From: a virus
DNA length: 33,174 bases
IMG/VR virus record: IMGVR_UViG_3300043419_000368
Coordinates: 1 to 33,174 of that record
Strand: one strand, 5' to 3'
A model generated the notes under the pieces. The model saw only the letters and a list, made by a program, of their open reading frames with translations. It was not told the origin of the DNA and made no database searches. This document shows, piece after piece, positions 6,602-31,597 of the stretch (positions are counted from its first letter, which is position 1; the number at the start of each line of letters is the position of its first letter). The position numbers and the translations under genes are program-made.

Positions 6602-7900
6602 CTACGCCCACGAATAGCTGCCGTAGTTTGGGAATAGTTCGAAGTACATGCGCATCATTATGGCATCTGCGTAATCGGGACTCTTACCATGCATGCGTGC
6701 TATCTCATCTTTGCTAATTACTGCAAGTTTGCCATCGGCTTCAGGCTGCCTGCGCCTAATCATGTCCAGTTCTTGCACGATAACATCGCGGAATTGCGAC
6801 ACTTTAAAGATTACTTTGTTTTGCTCGATTAATTCAGCAAGCTTAAAATAACACTCAGCCTTTTGGTTGGTGTATCTATCCGCTTGCTTAGCACGCCCAC
6901 CATTGAGAAAGCCTCGACACTTCAAACTATCTACTACACCACCACCAACACCATCCTCATCACAGATCACGTTGGATAATTTGATAGCGTGCCTGTCGCA
7001 TAGTTGGCGAATGGTAGCAACAACAGTTGTTATTGGTTGCTTGCGCAGCTCGTGAATCTCCATTAAATGCAATCCATGCCACACGCATATCACACTACGG
7101 TCTTTTCCAAGGCGTGCAATATCCGCACTGATGTACTTTTCTCCTTTGCTTTCTTCATCCCGGAAGCAGCGCACAAGGTCATCATATTGATACAGGTTGT
7201 CTACGGATTCATCGTATTCCCAATCTCCATCGAGCAGCCTTCGCCTATCCACTTCGGGTAACATGCGCAGCGTTTCAAGATATGATTCTGGCAAGTGTGG
7301 ATTGTCGGTAGGTAGTGATGGGATGAATGCAAGGTGCTGCGGCAGGTTATCTGCTTTAAATGGTGAATAGAATTCGTTGTATAACCATCCCTTTGATGGA
7401 TTGCATGTGAGCAGCATCTTCGGTTTGAGGTCGTACTGAGTAAGCTTGAATCGGATGCGGGACTGGAGTATATCAATTGCCCTCTTTGATACCTGTGCGC
7501 TTTCATCTACGTACGCATCGGTCAATTCAAGACCACCCAGTGCGTGAAATTCAGGGTCGGATGGATAAGCAAACAGGTCCTTGAGTATTATCTCGCTGCC
7601 ATTGCTGAATGTGATTACGTTCGTTTGGTTGTTAATTGTGTAGTGTTCATTAGGTGCTAACCCTAACATGTGCGCTACCTCAAAGAAGGTTTTAAGTGTG
7701 GTCTTCTTTAGCGTATCTAATTTGCTACGGCCTATCAACCCTCGCGTGCCGGGATACTTGAACCTGCGGCTTATTTGCCATGCACAACCAATGAATGATT
7801 TTGATCCACCTGCTGCACCTCCAAACAGCACCACACGTGCCGGGTGTGAATTACCCAGCACACGCAATGCTTCTTTTTGTTTCGGTAGGTACTCAATCAT
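6602..7900 (-). CDS. terL: Terminase large subunit (ATPase-nuclease packaging motor)
   Basis: The 432-aa protein has Walker A GGAAGGSKS (27-35), Walker B AYVDES with Asp132-Glu133, the coupling motif TCNPS (165-169), and nuclease acidic residues ADIARLGKD (Asp260), CDEDGVGGG (Asp314, Asp316) and SPDYADA (Asp409, Asp412). It drives DNA into the procapsid and cuts the concatemer. Length is normal. It is on the minus strand among early DNA genes, while the small subunit is on the plus strand 6 kb away (13916-14203), which is unusual. Its stop abuts operator copy 2 and its start overlaps the upstream SSB-like gene's stop. Confidence 0.95.
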   Translation of the reverse strand: MIEYLPKQKEALRVLGNSHPARVVLFGGAAGGSKSFIGCAWQISRRFKYPGTRGLIGRSKLDTLKKTTLKTFFEVAHMLGLAPNEHYTINNQTNVITFSNGSEIILKDLFAYPSDPEFHALGGLELTDAYVDESAQVSKRAIDILQSRIRFKLTQYDLKPKMLLTCNPSKGWLYNEFYSPFKADNLPQHLAFIPSLPTDNPHLPESYLETLRMLPEVDRRRLLDGDWEYDESVDNLYQYDDLVRCFRDEESKGEKYISADIARLGKDRSVICVWHGLHLMEIHELRKQPITTVVATIRQLCDRHAIKLSNVICDEDGVGGGVVDSLKCRGFLNGGRAKQADRYTNQKAECYFKLAELIEQNKVIFKVSQFRDVIVQELDMIRRRQPEADGKLAVISKDEIARMHGKSPDYADAIMMRMYFELFPNYGSYSWA

Positions 7901-14237: not shown

Positions 14238-14819
14238 ATGAAATTAAAGTTCAGCATAGCAGCGAATGCACAGGGTGTAACACTTGGCAAGTACATCGAC
14301 TACCAGAATGCAGTCGATAAGGTTGAACAGGTGCGCATCATTACAGGTAAGAGCAGCGAAAGTATTAAGCTACTTCAACTGCCTGTGATAGACGAAATCA
14401 TTATGCGCTTTGAAGCTGCGATTAAGATAGGCAGCAATGACTTCAAACGTAAGGTGCGAGTTGGTGCAATTGAGTTAGGCTTTATTCCTAACCTGCAAGA
14501 AATGACCTTTGGCGAATACGTCGACATAGACAGTGCATGTGCTAATCTGTACAAGGATGGTGTGGTAAACGGTGAAGCAGCGCATAAGATTATGTGTATC
14601 CTATATCGCCCTGTAAAAGCAAAGTTTGGTGAGTACTATGATATTGAGCCATACAATAGTGACGGCAAACGCAAGTATGCAGATGCCGTTAAAGAGTTGA
14701 CGCTTGACCATGTACTCAATGTGCTGCTTTTTTTTTCGACTTTAGAAATCGAGCTGTACAACAGTTCCCTCGAATATTTGGCAAAAGAGATAACGGAGAT
14801 AGTGAAGGAGATGAAGTAA
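14238..14819 (+). CDS. Tail assembly chaperone-like protein, unshifted form
   Basis: The 193-aa protein opens with MKLKFSIAANAQGVTLGKYI and repeats the pattern in its middle (MTFGEYVDIDSACANLYKDG), two related halves. Near its end (codons 164-166) is a run of nine T bases; the zero frame then reads STLEIELYNSSLEYLAKEI to TAA. Position upstream of the tail genes and a frameshift site fit the G/GT-like chaperones that coat the tape measure. The exact family is not certain from sequence alone. Confidence 0.7.
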   Translation: MKLKFSIAANAQGVTLGKYIDYQNAVDKVEQVRIITGKSSESIKLLQLPVIDEIIMRFEAAIKIGSNDFKRKVRVGAIELGFIPNLQEMTFGEYVDIDSACANLYKDGVVNGEAAHKIMCILYRPVKAKFGEYYDIEPYNSDGKRKYADAVKELTLDHVLNVLLFFSTLEIELYNSSLEYLAKEITEIVKEMK

Positions 14820-15001
14820 CAACGCCCGATGGCTTAGCCGTGTATGGTTGGTTTCACATCATAGAAAGCTTAGCCGATAGGGACATAACAAAATTTGACG
14901 CTGTGACAGAGCGTAGAGTATTTGAAGTGTTTACACACCTAACATACTTAGCAGATTACGTGTACACACAAAAGGTAGAAATGAGAAAACGCAATAGATA
15001 A
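14238..15001 (+). CDS. Predicted -1 frameshift product of the tail chaperone (254 aa)
   Basis: After codon 166 a -1 slip at T_TTT_TTT (14729-14735) continues in the -1 frame for 88 codons: FDFRNRAVQQFPRIFGKRDN and onward through GWFHIIESLADRDITKFDAV to TAA 14999-15001. That frame is open from 14709 (after a TGA) yet has no ATG until near its end, and its stop overlaps the next gene as TAATG. This is the layout of lambda gpGT. The extension is helical, charged and ends in Arg-rich sequence. Confidence 0.75.
14729..14735 (+). other. Slippery heptamer T_TTT_TTT (in a T9 run)
   Basis: Nine T at 14728-14736. The zero-frame codons are TTT TTT, preceded by T, which is the ideal X_XXY_YYZ signal for a -1 shift. 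It would let the ribosome enter the 88-codon extension. Confidence 0.75.
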
Positions 15002-17499
15002 TGAGTAGCAGTTACAACTATAGTTACAACGTTTTGATAAACCGCTTCGAAGCATTCGCAGCCGGGCATCTACTTATCAAACGTTTTACGCATGGACAGA
15101 TTGACCTTAGTGATCAGTTGAATGATGACCAGTATCCATTCATGCACGTAACACCTGATACTATTGAACCTGTAAAGGGGGCAATGCAGTTCGGATTTCA
15201 TATCATGTTTGCTGATATACCGCGTGACAAAGAAACAAAAGCGGAATACCAGCGCGAAGTCATTAGCGATTGTGTGCGATTAGGTCAAGACCTTATTGCC
15301 GAAATACAGAATGGACTTGAATTGTTTGGCTTCAATGTACAACTCGTAAACAACGTAGTGTTTGAGCCATTCATGGAGGAGCAAAAGAACACGGTTACGG
15401 GTGTGGCCTTTACGGTAAAGCTTGAGGTTCCGTGGGACTGGAGTGCATGCGATATTCCTGCTGTGTGGGCAGTAGGTGGTAATAGCACAGGTGGTAGCGG
15501 TTCGCCTATTGGTTTGCTTTTGCAAGTCAATGGAGTGAACAACGTCGTGCAAAGCGAGCTTGACCTTGTTGCGGGTACGAACGTAACGCTTACCGATAAC
15601 GGTGATGGTAGCGTGACCATTGATGCAACAGGTGGTGGTGGTGGTGGTGCCGGTACGGTTACTAGTGTTGCACTTACCGCACCCGCTGCATTCAATGTTA
15701 GCGGTTCACCTGTTACCACATCGGGAACTTTAGCACTAAGTGCTGCGGGTAATGCGTCGCAGTATATCACAGGTGCAGGTACATTGCAAACATTTCCTAC
15801 CATACCCGCTGCACAGGTCAATTCAGACTGGGATGCGGTTAGTGGCGTGGCTGAAATTCTCAATAAGCCATTTATACCTGTTAACCTTGATGACTTAGCA
15901 GATGTAGAAGCAAGTTCACCAAGTCTTCTTGCAACTATATTTTGGAACGGCTCGCAGTGGCGTGAAGGTAATGTACCACTATACACATTATCCGATGTCA
16001 ATATACCTACTCCAACCAATGGACAGGTGCTAACCTATAACACAACCTCTGGTAAGTGGGAAGCGGTAACGCCTGCATCGGGCGGTTCAGTTACGTCGGT
16101 TGGTCTTACTATGCCTGCACCAACTAACGCTGCATTTTCAGTTAGCGGTTCGCCCGTGACTACATCAGGTACACTTGCCGTTGCAGCTAATGGGACAAGT
16201 GATCAATACATTGATGGAACGGGCGCACTCCGCACATTGCCTTCAACGGGTGGTGGTGGTGGGCAGGTGTTGTATTTCAATGGTAATGTATCGCAAGGTA
16301 CAATAGGCGGTAATAATTACTACGAGTTAGGAACGGCTGCTAACACAGGCCCAGCGGCTAACTTCACACGTGCAACAACAGGTGTGATTGCCCGATTCAT
16401 CACGGATGTAAACCAACCAAACCATGTTCTTATTCCTTCGGGTGTTTGGACTATTGATGTGTACTTAAGTGAAACAGGGGGCGGCTCAAACCATGCGCAA
16501 ATACTTGCTAAGCTTTACACCTATAACGGTAGTACGTTCACGCTTGTTGCCACTTCCACAATGGAAGAAATCACTAATGGTAACGTGCCTGATTTGTACT
16601 CGTTTAGCGTTTCAGTACCTAATACGGTAACTGCTGCAACCGACCGTGTACACATTGAGTTCGACATACAGAACACCAACGGTAAGACGGTAACGCTATA
16701 TACTGAAGATGGGCGCATAGGTGAAGTGCATACTACCTATGCAATTGGTCTTAGTTCTTTGAATGGCCTAACTGAAAGCACGCAGAACTTTGCAACAGGT
16801 ACATCCGGGACTGACTTTGCTATTAGCAGCGCATCAGGTACACATACATTCAACCTACCAACTGCCAGTGCTGCAAATCGTGGTGCATTAAGTAGCGCAG
16901 ATTGGTCAACCTTTAATGGTAAACAGGATAGCATAGGACTTACTACGGTAGGTACTAACCTTGCAACACTTGCTAACCCATCTGCTGTACGTTATGTGCG
17001 CATCAATGCAGATAATACGGTTAGCGCGATAAGTCTAGCAACTTTAAAAAGTGAACTTGGCTTGTTGCGTGGTGTGCAAACTAGCAATCTAACCAACGCG
17101 AACACGGCAGCCAATACTAACATAACAGGTTGCATACTTGCACTCGAGGCAAATAGTAGTTATATAGGCCGTTTAATTGTTTCCTCGGGCTTTACGACTA
17201 CGACAGGTTTTAACTTACTATTTACTTTCCCGAGTGGCTCAACAATGAACGTTGGGCAAATATCCACCGCAGCGGTCGGTGGTCAATTTATGCAATGGCA
17301 AGCGGTAACGAGTGGAACCGTGTTAACGAATCGACTTAACCAGGCGGTAAACCAAATTGGTTTAGCTGTTATCGAAATATTCATAACTACAGGGGCCAAC
17401 TCAGGCAACTTAACACCCGCTTTCGTAACATCGAGCAATGGTCAAACTGCAACCGTGTACGGTAACGCAACACACATTCAACTTGAAAAAATATCATAA
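15001..17499 (+). CDS. Tail fiber with fused tail-associated N-terminal domain
   Basis: The 832-aa protein has an N-terminal domain of about 165 residues (MSSSYNYSYNVLINRFEAFA, then a beta and helix pattern to VPWDWSACDIP) that in related phages stands alone as a tail-completion or attachment protein. Then come Gly-rich linkers and repeated fiber modules (TVTSVALTAPAAFNVSGSPV, SVTSVGLTMPAPTNAAFSV), a C-terminal beta-rich receptor-like region, and the end HIQLEKIS. SGVAEILNKP and THTFNLPTASAANRG are common in Bacteroidota phage fibers. It should bind the host surface. It starts with a TAATG overlap with the shifted chaperone. Confidence 0.75.
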   Translation: MSSSYNYSYNVLINRFEAFAAGHLLIKRFTHGQIDLSDQLNDDQYPFMHVTPDTIEPVKGAMQFGFHIMFADIPRDKETKAEYQREVISDCVRLGQDLIAEIQNGLELFGFNVQLVNNVVFEPFMEEQKNTVTGVAFTVKLEVPWDWSACDIPAVWAVGGNSTGGSGSPIGLLLQVNGVNNVVQSELDLVAGTNVTLTDNGDGSVTIDATGGGGGGAGTVTSVALTAPAAFNVSGSPVTTSGTLALSAAGNASQYITGAGTLQTFPTIPAAQVNSDWDAVSGVAEILNKPFIPVNLDDLADVEASSPSLLATIFWNGSQWREGNVPLYTLSDVNIPTPTNGQVLTYNTTSGKWEAVTPASGGSVTSVGLTMPAPTNAAFSVSGSPVTTSGTLAVAANGTSDQYIDGTGALRTLPSTGGGGGQVLYFNGNVSQGTIGGNNYYELGTAANTGPAANFTRATTGVIARFITDVNQPNHVLIPSGVWTIDVYLSETGGGSNHAQILAKLYTYNGSTFTLVATSTMEEITNGNVPDLYSFSVSVPNTVTAATDRVHIEFDIQNTNGKTVTLYTEDGRIGEVHTTYAIGLSSLNGLTESTQNFATGTSGTDFAISSASGTHTFNLPTASAANRGALSSADWSTFNGKQDSIGLTTVGTNLATLANPSAVRYVRINADNTVSAISLATLKSELGLLRGVQTSNLTNANTAANTNITGCILALEANSSYIGRLIVSSGFTTTTGFNLLFTFPSGSTMNVGQISTAAVGGQFMQWQAVTSGTVLTNRLNQAVNQIGLAVIEIFITTGANSGNLTPAFVTSSNGQTATVYGNATHIQLEKIS

Positions 17500-22733: not shown

Positions 22734-22907
22734 ATGGAATCAATCAAAAACTCAATGCGCTATTTGCAGCTAGGTATCGTACCAAGTAGTAAGTATAACT
22801 TTCAACTTCGCAAGTGGCAGCGTGTGATGTGGTATATCACGCTGTATATATGGCGCACTATCTTGTTTTTCGGACTTATCTATTTACTATCTAAACTTAT
22901 ATACTAA
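22734..22907 (+). CDS. Small membrane protein between baseplate and tape measure (57 aa)
   Basis: A 57-aa frame begins MESIKNSMRYLQLGIVPSSK, followed by QLRKWQRVMWYITLYIWRT and a hydrophobic helix ILFFGLIYLLSKLIY. It shares TAATG with the tape-measure start. It may be a membrane-linked helper of tail assembly or DNA entry. It fills a 174-nt gap, which makes it likely real. Confidence 0.6.
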   Translation: MESIKNSMRYLQLGIVPSSKYNFQLRKWQRVMWYITLYIWRTILFFGLIYLLSKLIY

Positions 22908-25159
22908 TGGCAGAGCCTATTGTTCGGAGTTTCGTAATTGACACAAGTGAGAGTGAACAAAATCTCAAAGAATTAAATGTTCAAATTAACGCTACATCGA
23001 CTGCAATCAACAGCGGTGCGCAGTCATTTGAGAATGTTGCTGCTGCTGAACAAGAAGTAGTAACATCTACCAAATCACTCAAGGCGCAGCTACGTGAATT
23101 ACAAGCGCAGTTAGCCAACACGGAACCTGATTCAGCAAAGTATCGTGAACTTGCAGCGGCAGCGGGTGAACTTAAAGATAGAATTGGTGATGCGGCTGAA
23201 GCAGTAGGCACACAGGCGGGTAGTGCATTAGAGCGAGTGAGTGGATCACTTGGACTTGTTACATCCCGTATTGCCAACCTTGACTTTGAAGGCGCAGCGG
23301 AAGCAGCGCAATTATTTGCACAGAATATTGGTGAAGTTAAATTAACTGATATTACAAAAGGTTTATCCAGTTTAGGTACATCGTTGGTATCTATTGGTGC
23401 ATCTTTATTAAGCAATCCTTTATTTTATTTAGGTGCTGCAATAGCAGGTATAGTTATTTATTGGGAAGATTTAGATCAAGCTATAAAAAATCTAAATCCT
23501 GAATTAGAAAGACAACGTGCGCTAACCGCTGCTTTAAATACTGAAATCAACAATCAGTCAAAACAGGTAGGTACTCAAATCAGCAAAGTAAACGCATTGT
23601 TTAATGCGGTAACTGATTCCAATAAAGCTGATGCAGAACGAAAGCAAGCATTAGACGCAATCCAACAACTATATCCTGATATATTTAAGAATCAGAATAT
23701 AGACATTAATAATACAGATGCCCTAACAAATGCTAAGCTAACTTTAATACAAGCGATAGAGGCAGAAGCAAAAGCACAGGCGGCCCGAAATTTATTAGAA
23801 CAACAATATGCTAAACAATTTGAGTTACAGGTTAAGCTTCAACAAAGCCAAGCTACATTAAGTGAAAAGCAAGCTAAAGAAGCAGAAATTGTTGCTAATA
23901 GCAGTAGAAAAAGTGCTGCCGAAATTCAGCAATTTACGGTTAATATAGAGCAGGCAGGAAATGCTACAGCTAATGCAGCTTCTGAAGTCGCAAATTTGCA
24001 AAAAGAAATTGAAACTAATGCAAAAAATATTGCTGATGTAGAAAAAGTAGCAGGTGAATCTATTGTCAAAAACATAGTTGATAATGCCAACAAGAAAGTT
24101 GATAGCAGCAATAAAACAACTAAGGCGGTAACAGATAATAAAAAGAAAGAAAAAGATGAAGTAATACAAAAAGAAAATGATTTAACGGCTGAAATACTTA
24201 GACTACGCGAAGAACAATACCAGGCAAGCCTTAGTAATCAGGATAAAGAATTACGACAGGTCGCTTTAAAGTATCAAGTTTTAAAGGATCAAGCCGGTAC
24301 TAATGTAGAAGAACTAAAAGCATTACAGGAGCTTGAACGTGCCGAACTGCAAGCAATCAATGATAAATATTTTGATGAACTTTTAGCTACTGAATTAAAG
24401 AGTGATGAAGAAATATTGCAGAAAAAACGTGAGCAGGAAGCATTACGTTATGAGTTAACTACATCTGCTCAGCAAAAGGAAATAGATGCAATACGTGCCG
24501 CAGCAACCGCAAAAATTGAAATAGCACAAGGTGATGCTGCTTTAATCAAAATCATTAGTGAACAAAGTGAAGCTGAAATACAGGCTATTAAAGATAAATA
24601 TGCAGCAGAAGATAAAGCAAAGCAAGAACAAAAGGCAGCAGATGAAAAGGCTTTGTTACAAGGCAAATTAGATTTTGCTAAAGGTATACTGGGTAACATA
24701 GCATCTATTACGGAATCATATTCAAAAGGTGATGAACAACGAGCAAAGAAAGCTTTTAAGGTACAGAAGGCAATAAGTATTGCACAAGCAACAATAGATA
24801 CTTATGAAGGAGCGCAGGCTGCTTTTGTAAGTACTCAAAAAAATCCAGTGTCAGTATTATTCCCGGCTGCTCCATATATCGCAGCAGGTGCTGCGGTTGC
24901 AGCGGGTATTGCTAATGTTGCTGCTATTAGTAAGCAACAATTCCAAGGAGGTACACCACCTGCAACAAGCGAAAACAATCCCCCTTCATTGGATGGTGGG
25001 GGTGGTGGTGCGCAGCCTGCGCAGTTTAACCCACTTGCATCTGCATTTTTAAATGATAGACCTGAACAAATCACACCACGTGCGTATGTACTTGCAGGTG
25101 ATGTGGCAAGTCAACAAGAAGTGCGTACAAAGGTTGAAGACCTTTCGCGTATAGGATAA
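22907..25159 (+). CDS. Tail tape measure protein
   Basis: The 750-aa protein is mostly Ala/Gln/Lys-rich coiled coil (ELRELQAQLANTEPDSAKYR-like start; later EKEIETNAKNIADVEK and KEKDEVIQKENDLTAEI), with a hydrophobic region near residues 150-185 (LFYLGAAIAGIVIYW) and a C-terminal Ala/Gly-rich membrane-like stretch (AAPYIAAGAAVAAGIANVAA). This is the tape-measure pattern. At about 0.15 nm per residue it predicts a tail of roughly 110 nm. Its middle is more AT-rich than its neighbours. Confidence 0.85.
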   Translation: MAEPIVRSFVIDTSESEQNLKELNVQINATSTAINSGAQSFENVAAAEQEVVTSTKSLKAQLRELQAQLANTEPDSAKYRELAAAAGELKDRIGDAAEAVGTQAGSALERVSGSLGLVTSRIANLDFEGAAEAAQLFAQNIGEVKLTDITKGLSSLGTSLVSIGASLLSNPLFYLGAAIAGIVIYWEDLDQAIKNLNPELERQRALTAALNTEINNQSKQVGTQISKVNALFNAVTDSNKADAERKQALDAIQQLYPDIFKNQNIDINNTDALTNAKLTLIQAIEAEAKAQAARNLLEQQYAKQFELQVKLQQSQATLSEKQAKEAEIVANSSRKSAAEIQQFTVNIEQAGNATANAASEVANLQKEIETNAKNIADVEKVAGESIVKNIVDNANKKVDSSNKTTKAVTDNKKKEKDEVIQKENDLTAEILRLREEQYQASLSNQDKELRQVALKYQVLKDQAGTNVEELKALQELERAELQAINDKYFDELLATELKSDEEILQKKREQEALRYELTTSAQQKEIDAIRAAATAKIEIAQGDAALIKIISEQSEAEIQAIKDKYAAEDKAKQEQKAADEKALLQGKLDFAKGILGNIASITESYSKGDEQRAKKAFKVQKAISIAQATIDTYEGAQAAFVSTQKNPVSVLFPAAPYIAAGAAVAAGIANVAAISKQQFQGGTPPATSENNPPSLDGGGGGAQPAQFNPLASAFLNDRPEQITPRAYVLAGDVASQQEVRTKVEDLSRIG

Positions 25160-29427: not shown

Positions 29428-29817
29428 ATGATATATCTAACTACAAATACAGCTAATCAGCAAGTGTATCTATCGCTTGACGAAGCAAGGCAGTATTACA
29501 GCACAGCATTCACAAACTATCTTATTATTCTCACACACGAAGAGAATAGCACTACCGGTAACAAGCTTGCACAGGTTGCAACGGTTGTTAGTGAATCGGT
29601 AAGAATTACACACCTAACCATTACCACAGTTGGCTTAACTTTGGCGGGTAGATACCGCTATGAAGTATACGGCCAAAATTCTCCATCTAATACTAATCCG
29701 ACAAATGCTGCTGTTGTTGGTATTGTGGAGCGTGGGTATGCTGTTTTAAATGACAATACAAGTTGGTTTGACGTACCTGTCAATACCATACCAAACGATA
29801 TAATATATGAACCATAA
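29428..29817 (+). CDS. Conserved small head-region protein (129 aa)
   Basis: The 129-aa protein is beta-rich (QVYLSLDEARQYYSTAFTN, then YLIILTHEENSTTGNK, YRYEVYGQNSP) and ends in a WFDVPVN segment. Proteins with this arrangement sit next to portal genes in many Bacteroidota phages, function unknown. An AAAGAGG stretch precedes its start. It overlaps the portal start by 11 nt. Confidence 0.65.
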   Translation: MIYLTTNTANQQVYLSLDEARQYYSTAFTNYLIILTHEENSTTGNKLAQVATVVSESVRITHLTITTVGLTLAGRYRYEVYGQNSPSNTNPTNAAVVGIVERGYAVLNDNTSWFDVPVNTIPNDIIYEP

Positions 29818-31597
29818 CGAATCAAACATAGTATCGCTAAAGCTTAGTGAATACGTAGCTAAGAGTGATGCAGAAAAAGTCGACCGCAAAGGCTGGGTAA
29901 ACTACGGAGATGCAAACGACTTCCCGCAGTACCTACGTGACCTATCACACGAATCACCTGTACACGGTTCGCTCGTTGTGGCTATTGGTGATATGATTGC
30001 GGGTAAGGGTATCCAGTCTGAACAATATCAGGCCGAACTCGATGCATTAAAAATTGATGAACTAACCTATGCGTGTGCGCATGACTTGAAGTTGTTTGGT
30101 GGTTTCTTTATCGAAGTAATTTGGAGCAATGATAGGACTGTTATATCAAAGCTCAATGCCATACCATTTGAAGAGTGCCGCATCGCAATCAGTCAAGAAG
30201 ACGAAAGCGAAGTAGGTATCTACCACAGTTACGATTGGTCAAACATTCGTAAGAAAAAGAACACGCCTGAGTTCATACCTAAATATAACTACCTTACACG
30301 TAACGAAGAACCACGCCAAATCTATTGGTGCTTTACATACACAGGTAGTGATTCATACCCGCGCCCTGATTACTGGAGTGCGATTAACTATATAGAGTTA
30401 GATAAGCAGATATCTATATTCCATATCAACCAAATTTCGAACGGTCTTTTCCCTTCTACTATTATCAACTTCTACAATGGGCAAGCAACGCCTGAACAGA
30501 AGCAACAGATGATGTTAGACTGGGAAAATAAGATGAGTGGCGCACGTAATGCAGGAAAGGTTGTGATGTTCTTCAATGAACGTGATCAACCTAAGACTGA
30601 GATTACACCATTCCCTGTTAATGACGCAGATAAGCAGTATCAGTTAATGAATGATACGGCACAGCAAAAGATAATCACAGCACACCGTGTTACTACGCCA
30701 CTTCTTTTCGGTATACGCGACACAGGCGGTGGATTTGGTAGCAACAAAGACGAAATGGCTACAGGTTTGGAGATATTCAACAAACAAGTAGTAGAACCTT
30801 ATCAGGCTAAAATCAATAAGAGCATTACCGAACTATTGAGCAATCAAATGCCGGGTGTAAATCTTATGATTGTTCCTAACACGCCATTAATTACAGAGCA
30901 GGCAGCAGTAGCACCCGATGCAAGTGCAACAGGCAATGTTGCTGCTCCTGCATCTTTAGACGCTGAACAAATTAGTTCGATAGTGCAAGCTACATTGATG
31001 GCTTTTGAAAAAAAAAAAGATGATAGCACAGCAGGAGATGCATTGATTGCATTAGGTGAAGATTGGAAAGAAGAATGGATTTTGATTGATGCGTATAACG
31101 CTGATGAAGAAATTGAGCATGAGTTTGCGGTGCGCACGGGTGCGGCAAGACCAGCGGCAAAGAGTGAACAGGATGCCATTATCGATGGTAAGTACTTTAT
31201 TACACGTTATGTGTATGCAGGTAGTTTTACCCATGATAATATGCGCCCATTCTGCAAGAAGATGGTGGAAGCGGGTAAGCTATATCGCAAAGAAGATATA
31301 GTTTCAATGGAGAATGTCGCAGTTAATCCCGGATGGGGGCCTGAAGGAGCGGCTACATATGACATTTGGTTTTACAAAGGCGGTGGTAATTGCCGTCACT
31401 TTTGGGAGAAGCGTGTATATGTAGATGCAAGTGGTGCAAAGATTAACCCTAATGACCCCGATGCTAAGAGAATAGCGGTTGCACTTGCTGAACGCATGGG
31501 TTATAAAGTGCGTAATAATGCACTTGTTGCAAAACTTCCTGAAGACATGCCACACAACGGCTTCCTTCCAACAAATCCTATTTACGGTAATCAATAA
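29807..31597 (+). CDS. Portal protein fused to an extra C-terminal domain
   Basis: The 596-aa protein has portal features in residues 1-390: WVNYGDANDFPQYLRDL near the start, ISQEDESEVGIYHSYDW, IFHINQISNGLFPSTII, then HRVTTPLLFGIRDTGGGFGS. At codons 401-404 it meets an A11 run (31008-31018), then a 190-residue C-terminal domain (RPFCKKMVEAGKLYRKEDIV, then YDIWFYKGGGNCRHFWEKRV) that in related phages is found as a C-terminal or separate piece near head proteins. The portal forms the DNA gate of the head. The fused part may add a head-binding or protein-ejection role. One frame, no break. Confidence 0.8.
   Translation: MNHNESNIVSLKLSEYVAKSDAEKVDRKGWVNYGDANDFPQYLRDLSHESPVHGSLVVAIGDMIAGKGIQSEQYQAELDALKIDELTYACAHDLKLFGGFFIEVIWSNDRTVISKLNAIPFEECRIAISQEDESEVGIYHSYDWSNIRKKKNTPEFIPKYNYLTRNEEPRQIYWCFTYTGSDSYPRPDYWSAINYIELDKQISIFHINQISNGLFPSTIINFYNGQATPEQKQQMMLDWENKMSGARNAGKVVMFFNERDQPKTEITPFPVNDADKQYQLMNDTAQQKIITAHRVTTPLLFGIRDTGGGFGSNKDEMATGLEIFNKQVVEPYQAKINKSITELLSNQMPGVNLMIVPNTPLITEQAAVAPDASATGNVAAPASLDAEQISSIVQATLMAFEKKKDDSTAGDALIALGEDWKEEWILIDAYNADEEIEHEFAVRTGAARPAAKSEQDAIIDGKYFITRYVYAGSFTHDNMRPFCKKMVEAGKLYRKEDIVSMENVAVNPGWGPEGAATYDIWFYKGGGNCRHFWEKRVYVDASGAKINPNDPDAKRIAVALAERMGYKVRNNALVAKLPEDMPHNGFLPTNPIYGNQ
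31008..31018 (+). other. A11 run at the portal/extra-domain junction
   Basis: Eleven A code Glu-Lys-Lys-Lys between the two parts of the portal fusion. A slip by polymerase or ribosome in either direction meets a stop within about 12 codons (TGA at 31020-31022 or 31045-31047 region), which would give a portal without the extra part. Confidence 0.6.

Follow-up and report, generated by a model that had tools for sequence, protein, structure and literature searches.

A tail-module gene family of phages with a conserved T9 run and putative G/GT-like two-product coding

A gene in the tail module of a virus, whose host is probably a member of the Bacteroidota, almost certainly encodes two proteins, and sequence comparison shows this two-product coding to be conserved across the family to which the gene belongs. 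The short product, G, would be a protein of 193 amino acids, and the long product, GT, a fusion of 254 amino acids that would arise when one extra U is inserted into a U9 tract, adding a second helical domain that is read in the -1 frame. The frame change is proposed to come about mainly through slippage of RNA polymerase on the T9 template run (programmed transcriptional slippage). Many copies of G would coat the tape-measure protein, and a few copies of GT would bring in the tail-tube subunits. For the whole chain, comprising two products, a chaperone role and a frame change made mainly by the polymerase, a probability of about 0.48 is estimated.

The window, the whole stretch of DNA that was analysed, is an IMG/VR virus record of 33,174 bases. 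Its features that bear on the gene are as follows.

14238..14819, plus strand: zero-frame gene with a G-like product of 193 aa, of which residues 1-166 are common to both products (ORF, PHROG match, dN/dS, AlphaFold)
14728..14736, plus strand: T9 run, the putative slip site (sequence; T9 or T10 in 286 of 287 distinct junctions)
14729..14735, plus strand: T_TTT_TTT heptamer in zero-frame phase, the minimum for a ribosomal -1 slip (sequence, junction codon table)
14735..15001, plus strand: -1-frame extension with a T-like domain, 88 codons and TAA (open frame, dN/dS, conserved motif)
14737..14819, plus strand: dual-coded overlap of the zero-frame tail and the start of the -1 domain (drop in pS and in synonymous differences)
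15001..17499, plus strand: next gene, with its ATG at 15001 inside the -1-frame TAA (ORF, overlap, neighbour comparison)
22907..25159, plus strand: tape-measure protein gene, whose product would be the partner of the G part (match to phrog_1538, tape measure, at E 3.7e-7)

The codons of the run read CTT TTT TTT TCG in the zero frame (14727-14738), and the heptamer at 14729-14735 is therefore in phase. In the -1 frame no stop occurs from 14708 until the TAA at 14999-15001, and this frame provides 88 residues when counted from 14735, which together with the 166 residues of the G part give the 254 amino acids of GT. These coordinates reproduce what an earlier note, made from the sequence alone, had described as an open 88-residue extension behind a T9 run. 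The note had also placed the stop of the extension over the start of the next gene, and the TAA indeed contains the first base of the ATG at 15001. The -1-frame stop and the following start share bases, as TAATG or ATGA (14999-15003 in the window), in most close relatives, and translation of the gene 3' of G/GT may therefore be coupled to that of the frameshifted frame.

The evidence that both frames code for protein comes from the way in which they vary. Within the window-like set of sequences, the zero frame has a dN/dS of 0.09 ahead of the run and the -1 frame one of 0.049 past the zero-frame stop, with values of 2.0 and 1.7 for two control frames, so the extension is under strong purifying selection. 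In the overlap of the same set, both frames show a drop in pS from 0.67 to about 0.2, and the synonymous difference per codon goes from 0.40-0.48 before the run to 0.00 within it and about 0.15 after it. A second subfamily, with an overlap of 84 codons, shows a drop in pS there from 0.37 to 0.055. Such a loss of synonymous variation is the mark of dual coding and argues for two coding frames in the overlap, which bears out the view in the note that both look like real protein. The T domain keeps the motif WGWY..(I/V)Y.LA.GDI across the family. The zero-frame tail differs in length between subfamilies, and in one of them (L146-L189) it extends about 80-86 codons beyond the run, with the consequence that almost the whole extension is co-encoded in two frames.

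The junction is highly conserved among relatives, to an extent well beyond what chance would give. A close set of 80 relatives together with the window (n=81), 75-100% identical to the window, has exactly T9 in the same codon phase in all 81 sequences, and an open extension of 88-90 aa is found in all 76 that are complete at this point. Wider scans recovered relatives at 25-57% identity, with at least 589 confirmed relatives from one scan; scans of genome contigs returned none in the first round and eight contigs in the second. Junctions across the family, down to about 25% identity, were read with HMMs for both parts, and of the 287 distinct ones, 286 have G in frame 0 and T in the -1 frame, separated by a run of T9 (277) or T10 (9). 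Coding in the second frame is thus a property of the homologues as well as of the window. The one remaining case (L128:2475-3134) lacks the junction and has both parts fused in frame, and this loss represents either a real deletion or an assembly error. In 52 representative sequences that share less than 72% identity with each other, all nine columns of the run are T and the flanking positions vary. The 434 kb of these representatives contain only three other same-strand runs of nine or more T.

The Nonlabens phages P12024S and P12024L are the named cultured members that carry the frameshift junction. In the record of P12024S (L082:9001-9695) the gene is annotated as two, gp38 and gp39, with gp39 drawn from an internal ATG that misses the start of the T domain. 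The contigs of two relatives (L276 and L277) were assigned to bins of Pseudooceanicola and Euryarchaeota; the gene content of these contigs is phage-like, and the bins may therefore be contaminated.

More distant homologues hold both halves in a single open reading frame. A continuous G and T frame of 259-301 aa, with no change of frame, is present in Flavobacterium phage 2A, laban6-1, Cellulophaga Ingeline, Polaribacter Leef, Microcystis Mea-Yong924-1 and Bacteroides BT-TP2. When the family was compared with these fused proteins by hhalign, the G part matched with an E value of 6.6e-13 (97.8%) and the T part with an E value of 6.6e-5 (63.8%), in the expected order. Since distant cultured phages encode the two halves continuously, G and T belong on one polypeptide. 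Flavobacterium phage 6H gp10 (L363:10352-10927), which is broken, was considered as another frameshift; the close relative 2A has one continuous ORF, and the break in 6H is accordingly attributed to an indel or a sequence error and was left out of the frameshift evidence.

How the frame is changed is the step at which two readings compete. Slippage by RNA polymerase is judged, from the pattern of the sequences, to be the somewhat more probable main route. In the other, which is less probable but of appreciable likelihood, the same two products arise when a pair of Phe tRNAs slips by -1 in the ribosome on U_UUU_UUU, in the manner of lambda G/GT. The note had favoured a slip of this kind on T_TTT_TTT. 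What a ribosomal -1 slip requires, a heptamer in phase, is certainly present, as T_TTT_TTT in the window and as T_TTT_TTN at the junctions, covering nearly all relatives, and ribosomal -1 frameshifting is the route described for known tail chaperones (PMC5009743). What is kept through the family, however, is a run of at least nine rather than a heptamer, for no run shorter than nine occurs at any of the 286 distinct junctions that have one (287 in all). In many bacteria, too, it is from a length of nine that A/T runs are avoided and prone to slippage (PMC1088944, PMC5009743). In the other genes of these phages, runs of nine or more T number 0 against an expected 4.4.

Codon use within the run provides a second line of evidence. 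The four junction codons a-b-c-d take the form (G/C/A/T)TT TTT TTT T(AC/AT/GG/CG), such that replacing codon c by TTC is silent in the zero frame and, where d is TAx or TGG, in the -1 frame as well (Leu). The change would leave U_UUU_UUC, a heptamer that functions on the ribosome in E. coli and is found in use in IS elements, and whose tetramer U_UUC came out a little ahead of U_UUU when tested in E. coli (PMC4066793). Despite this, TTC is the second Phe codon in just one of 48 representative junctions (P 2e-6, with relatedness ignored) and in 2 of 201 junctions overall, against a TTC share of 28-31% among the Phe codons elsewhere in these genes. In both TTC cases, and in one TTG case, the run is lengthened on its 5' side to T10. 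The tree places the 3'-side losses of T (L269, L272 and L273) in a clade with an earlier gain of TTT on the 5' side, and shows T lost on one side and gained on the other in L279 and L349; the informative exceptions to the run pattern amount to about four lineages.

Stimulators of ribosomal frameshifting were sought on both sides of the run. A Shine-Dalgarno-like stimulator upstream is found in 5 of the 52 representatives compared with 68 of 874, which is no excess, and the mean folding z for a downstream RNA structure is -0.06 in the same 52. Taken together, a floor of nine instead of seven, the avoidance of U_UUU_UUC and the absence of such stimulators make the ribosomal slip doubtful and fit slippage by RNA polymerase better. 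Many ribosomal G/GT sites likewise have no clear stimulators. Moreover, coding constraint accounts for part of the run pattern, and a strict need for U_UUU_UUU combined with coding constraint on the flanking T residues would also yield T9 in most lineages. Of the slip put forward in the note, then, the in-phase heptamer stands and its use by the ribosome has become the less favoured half.

The gene is part of the tail module, in which the tape-measure gene follows it at a distance of several genes. The order is terL (in several subfamilies), G/GT, a short FPLxHI protein, a gp10-like protein, further tail genes and the tape measure. The FPLxHI neighbour in one relative (L272) is phrog_30964, and in the window the product of 15001..17499 is similar at its N-terminus to the short FPLxHI protein encoded after G/GT in other subfamilies. 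In the window, terL occupies 6602-7900 on the minus strand and is separated from the tail module, whilst in other subfamilies it is directly upstream of G/GT.

The zero-frame protein matches phrog_32199, for which no function is annotated, with an E value of 2.4e-12; the note's remark that the family could not be placed as a known chaperone therefore holds. Pfam and PDB sequence searches gave nothing significant, and hhalign comparisons with lambda G, lambda T and HK97 gp13 were negative, these being single-sequence comparisons of low sensitivity. The AlphaFold model of the zero-frame protein has a pLDDT of 93, and Foldseek with this model of G retrieves family members and many uncharacterised phage proteins, with nothing significant against the PDB. 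Among 126 chains compared, the HK97 tail assembly chaperone 2OB9 is the only one with Z>=2, a weak match (Z 2.8) over residues 1-63, with 59 aligned at 3.7 A, and the second half of the G domain (residues 64-166) falls outside it. The model of the T domain is of low confidence (pLDDT 72), and the lack of a match among the six chains compared with it says little.

It is likely that G/GT acts in the manner of the lambda G/GT tail assembly chaperone, a function that fits with the tail module, the tape-measure gene downstream, the G/GT architecture and the weak fold match to HK97. As this match is weak and the sequence comparisons are negative, the proteins are called chaperone-like and are not filed in a known chaperone family. 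The recoding could also be real and the protein have another role in tail or neck assembly, a reading that would account for the absence of a significant sequence match to known chaperones and for the several genes that separate G/GT from the tape measure. It is nonetheless unlikely, given the architecture, size and tail-module position of the gene and the weak 2OB9 match, and no second G/GT-like pair is seen between the tail genes of the window. The description of the gene in the note as a tail chaperone is thus upheld for the two-product arrangement in the tail module, and for the chaperone identity itself, architecture, position and one weak fold match stand beside negative hhalign comparisons.

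Two further explanations of the split frame are less probable still. Synthesis of the T domain as a separate protein, by an internal start or by re-initiation, would agree with the internal ATG chosen for gp39 in the Nonlabens P12024S record, and is nevertheless very improbable: 317 of 354 junctions are free of ATG, GTG and TTG in the early -1 frame, leaving the T domain without an evident start of its own, the conservation of T9 would have no explanation, and the distant homologues are fused. Homopolymers are generally error-prone and mutable, yet a sequencing or assembly error (the miscounted T run, in truth T10 with a single 254-aa frame, that the note had raised) or a phase-variation switch can be dismissed, since the same out-of-frame relation recurs in 286 distinct contigs and isolates, an in-frame T10 occurs in none of the relatives and both frames are under purifying selection.

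The portal ORF of the window (29807-31597) contains a run of its own, A11 at 31008-31018, which has a bearing on the mode of slippage and speaks on the side of the polymerase. A run of A9-A11, always read as AAA AAA AAA, is present in 73 of 73 distinct sequences from relatives and the window, whereas in the same portal genes AAG is commoner than AAA for Lys (1750 against 799). Both other frames stop within 28 nt of the run, and a slip there would consequently remove a C-terminal region of about 195 aa. It is possible that this represents a second programmed slip that gives a truncated portal product. The portal of Nonlabens P12024S has no such A run.

G/GT recoding is known as a kind, and the family with the T9 junction is unannotated. 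The literature searched, the coverage of which is incomplete, yielded no tail gene recoded by a transcriptional route. The fuller proposal, of a large unannotated G/GT family in phages of Bacteroidota and neighbours in which polymerase slippage on T9 would set the ratio of short to long product, and in which slippage on A9-A11 would truncate the portal in the group of the window, is tentative, at somewhat less than even odds. If a polymerase-type run in a family hundreds strong proves true, the same need for two products would be one that transcription can serve; the cultured Nonlabens phages P12024S and P12024L allow the question of slippage to be tested. The proteins of phrog_32199 and phrog_25418, whose function is not annotated, gain a two-domain reading; gene callers split or lose the T domain.

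The closest parallels for the proposed slip are the cases of programmed transcriptional slippage at 9A/9T, namely Thermus dnaX, Shigella mxiE and IS elements, which share with the present family a homopolymer of at least nine, a conserved reading in the other frame downstream and no need for RNA stimulators; they differ in that no tail-gene case was found among them in the literature searched. A slip at the portal run would resemble dnaX in truncating a C-terminal region. The phrog_25418 proteins of the Duneviridae and their relatives, such as Flavobacterium phage 2A, are homologous in both the G half and the T half, but have a single ORF without a frameshift, such that only the fused product is evident there. 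HK97 gp13, which has a -1 frameshift and is represented by PDB 2OB9, is similar in its two-product -1 arrangement and in the weak fold match, and dissimilar in the negative sequence comparison and in the second half of the present G domain, which has no part in that match. With respect to lambda G/GT, no sequence similarity was detected by hhalign, the lambda gene is directly upstream of the tape measure whereas several genes intervene here, and the slip site GGGAAAG of lambda is replaced by a T9 run on which the slip is possibly transcriptional. In common with lambda, the gene has a short product and a -1-extended product, with the extension entered near the end of the first gene, and it resides in a tail module with the tape-measure gene downstream.
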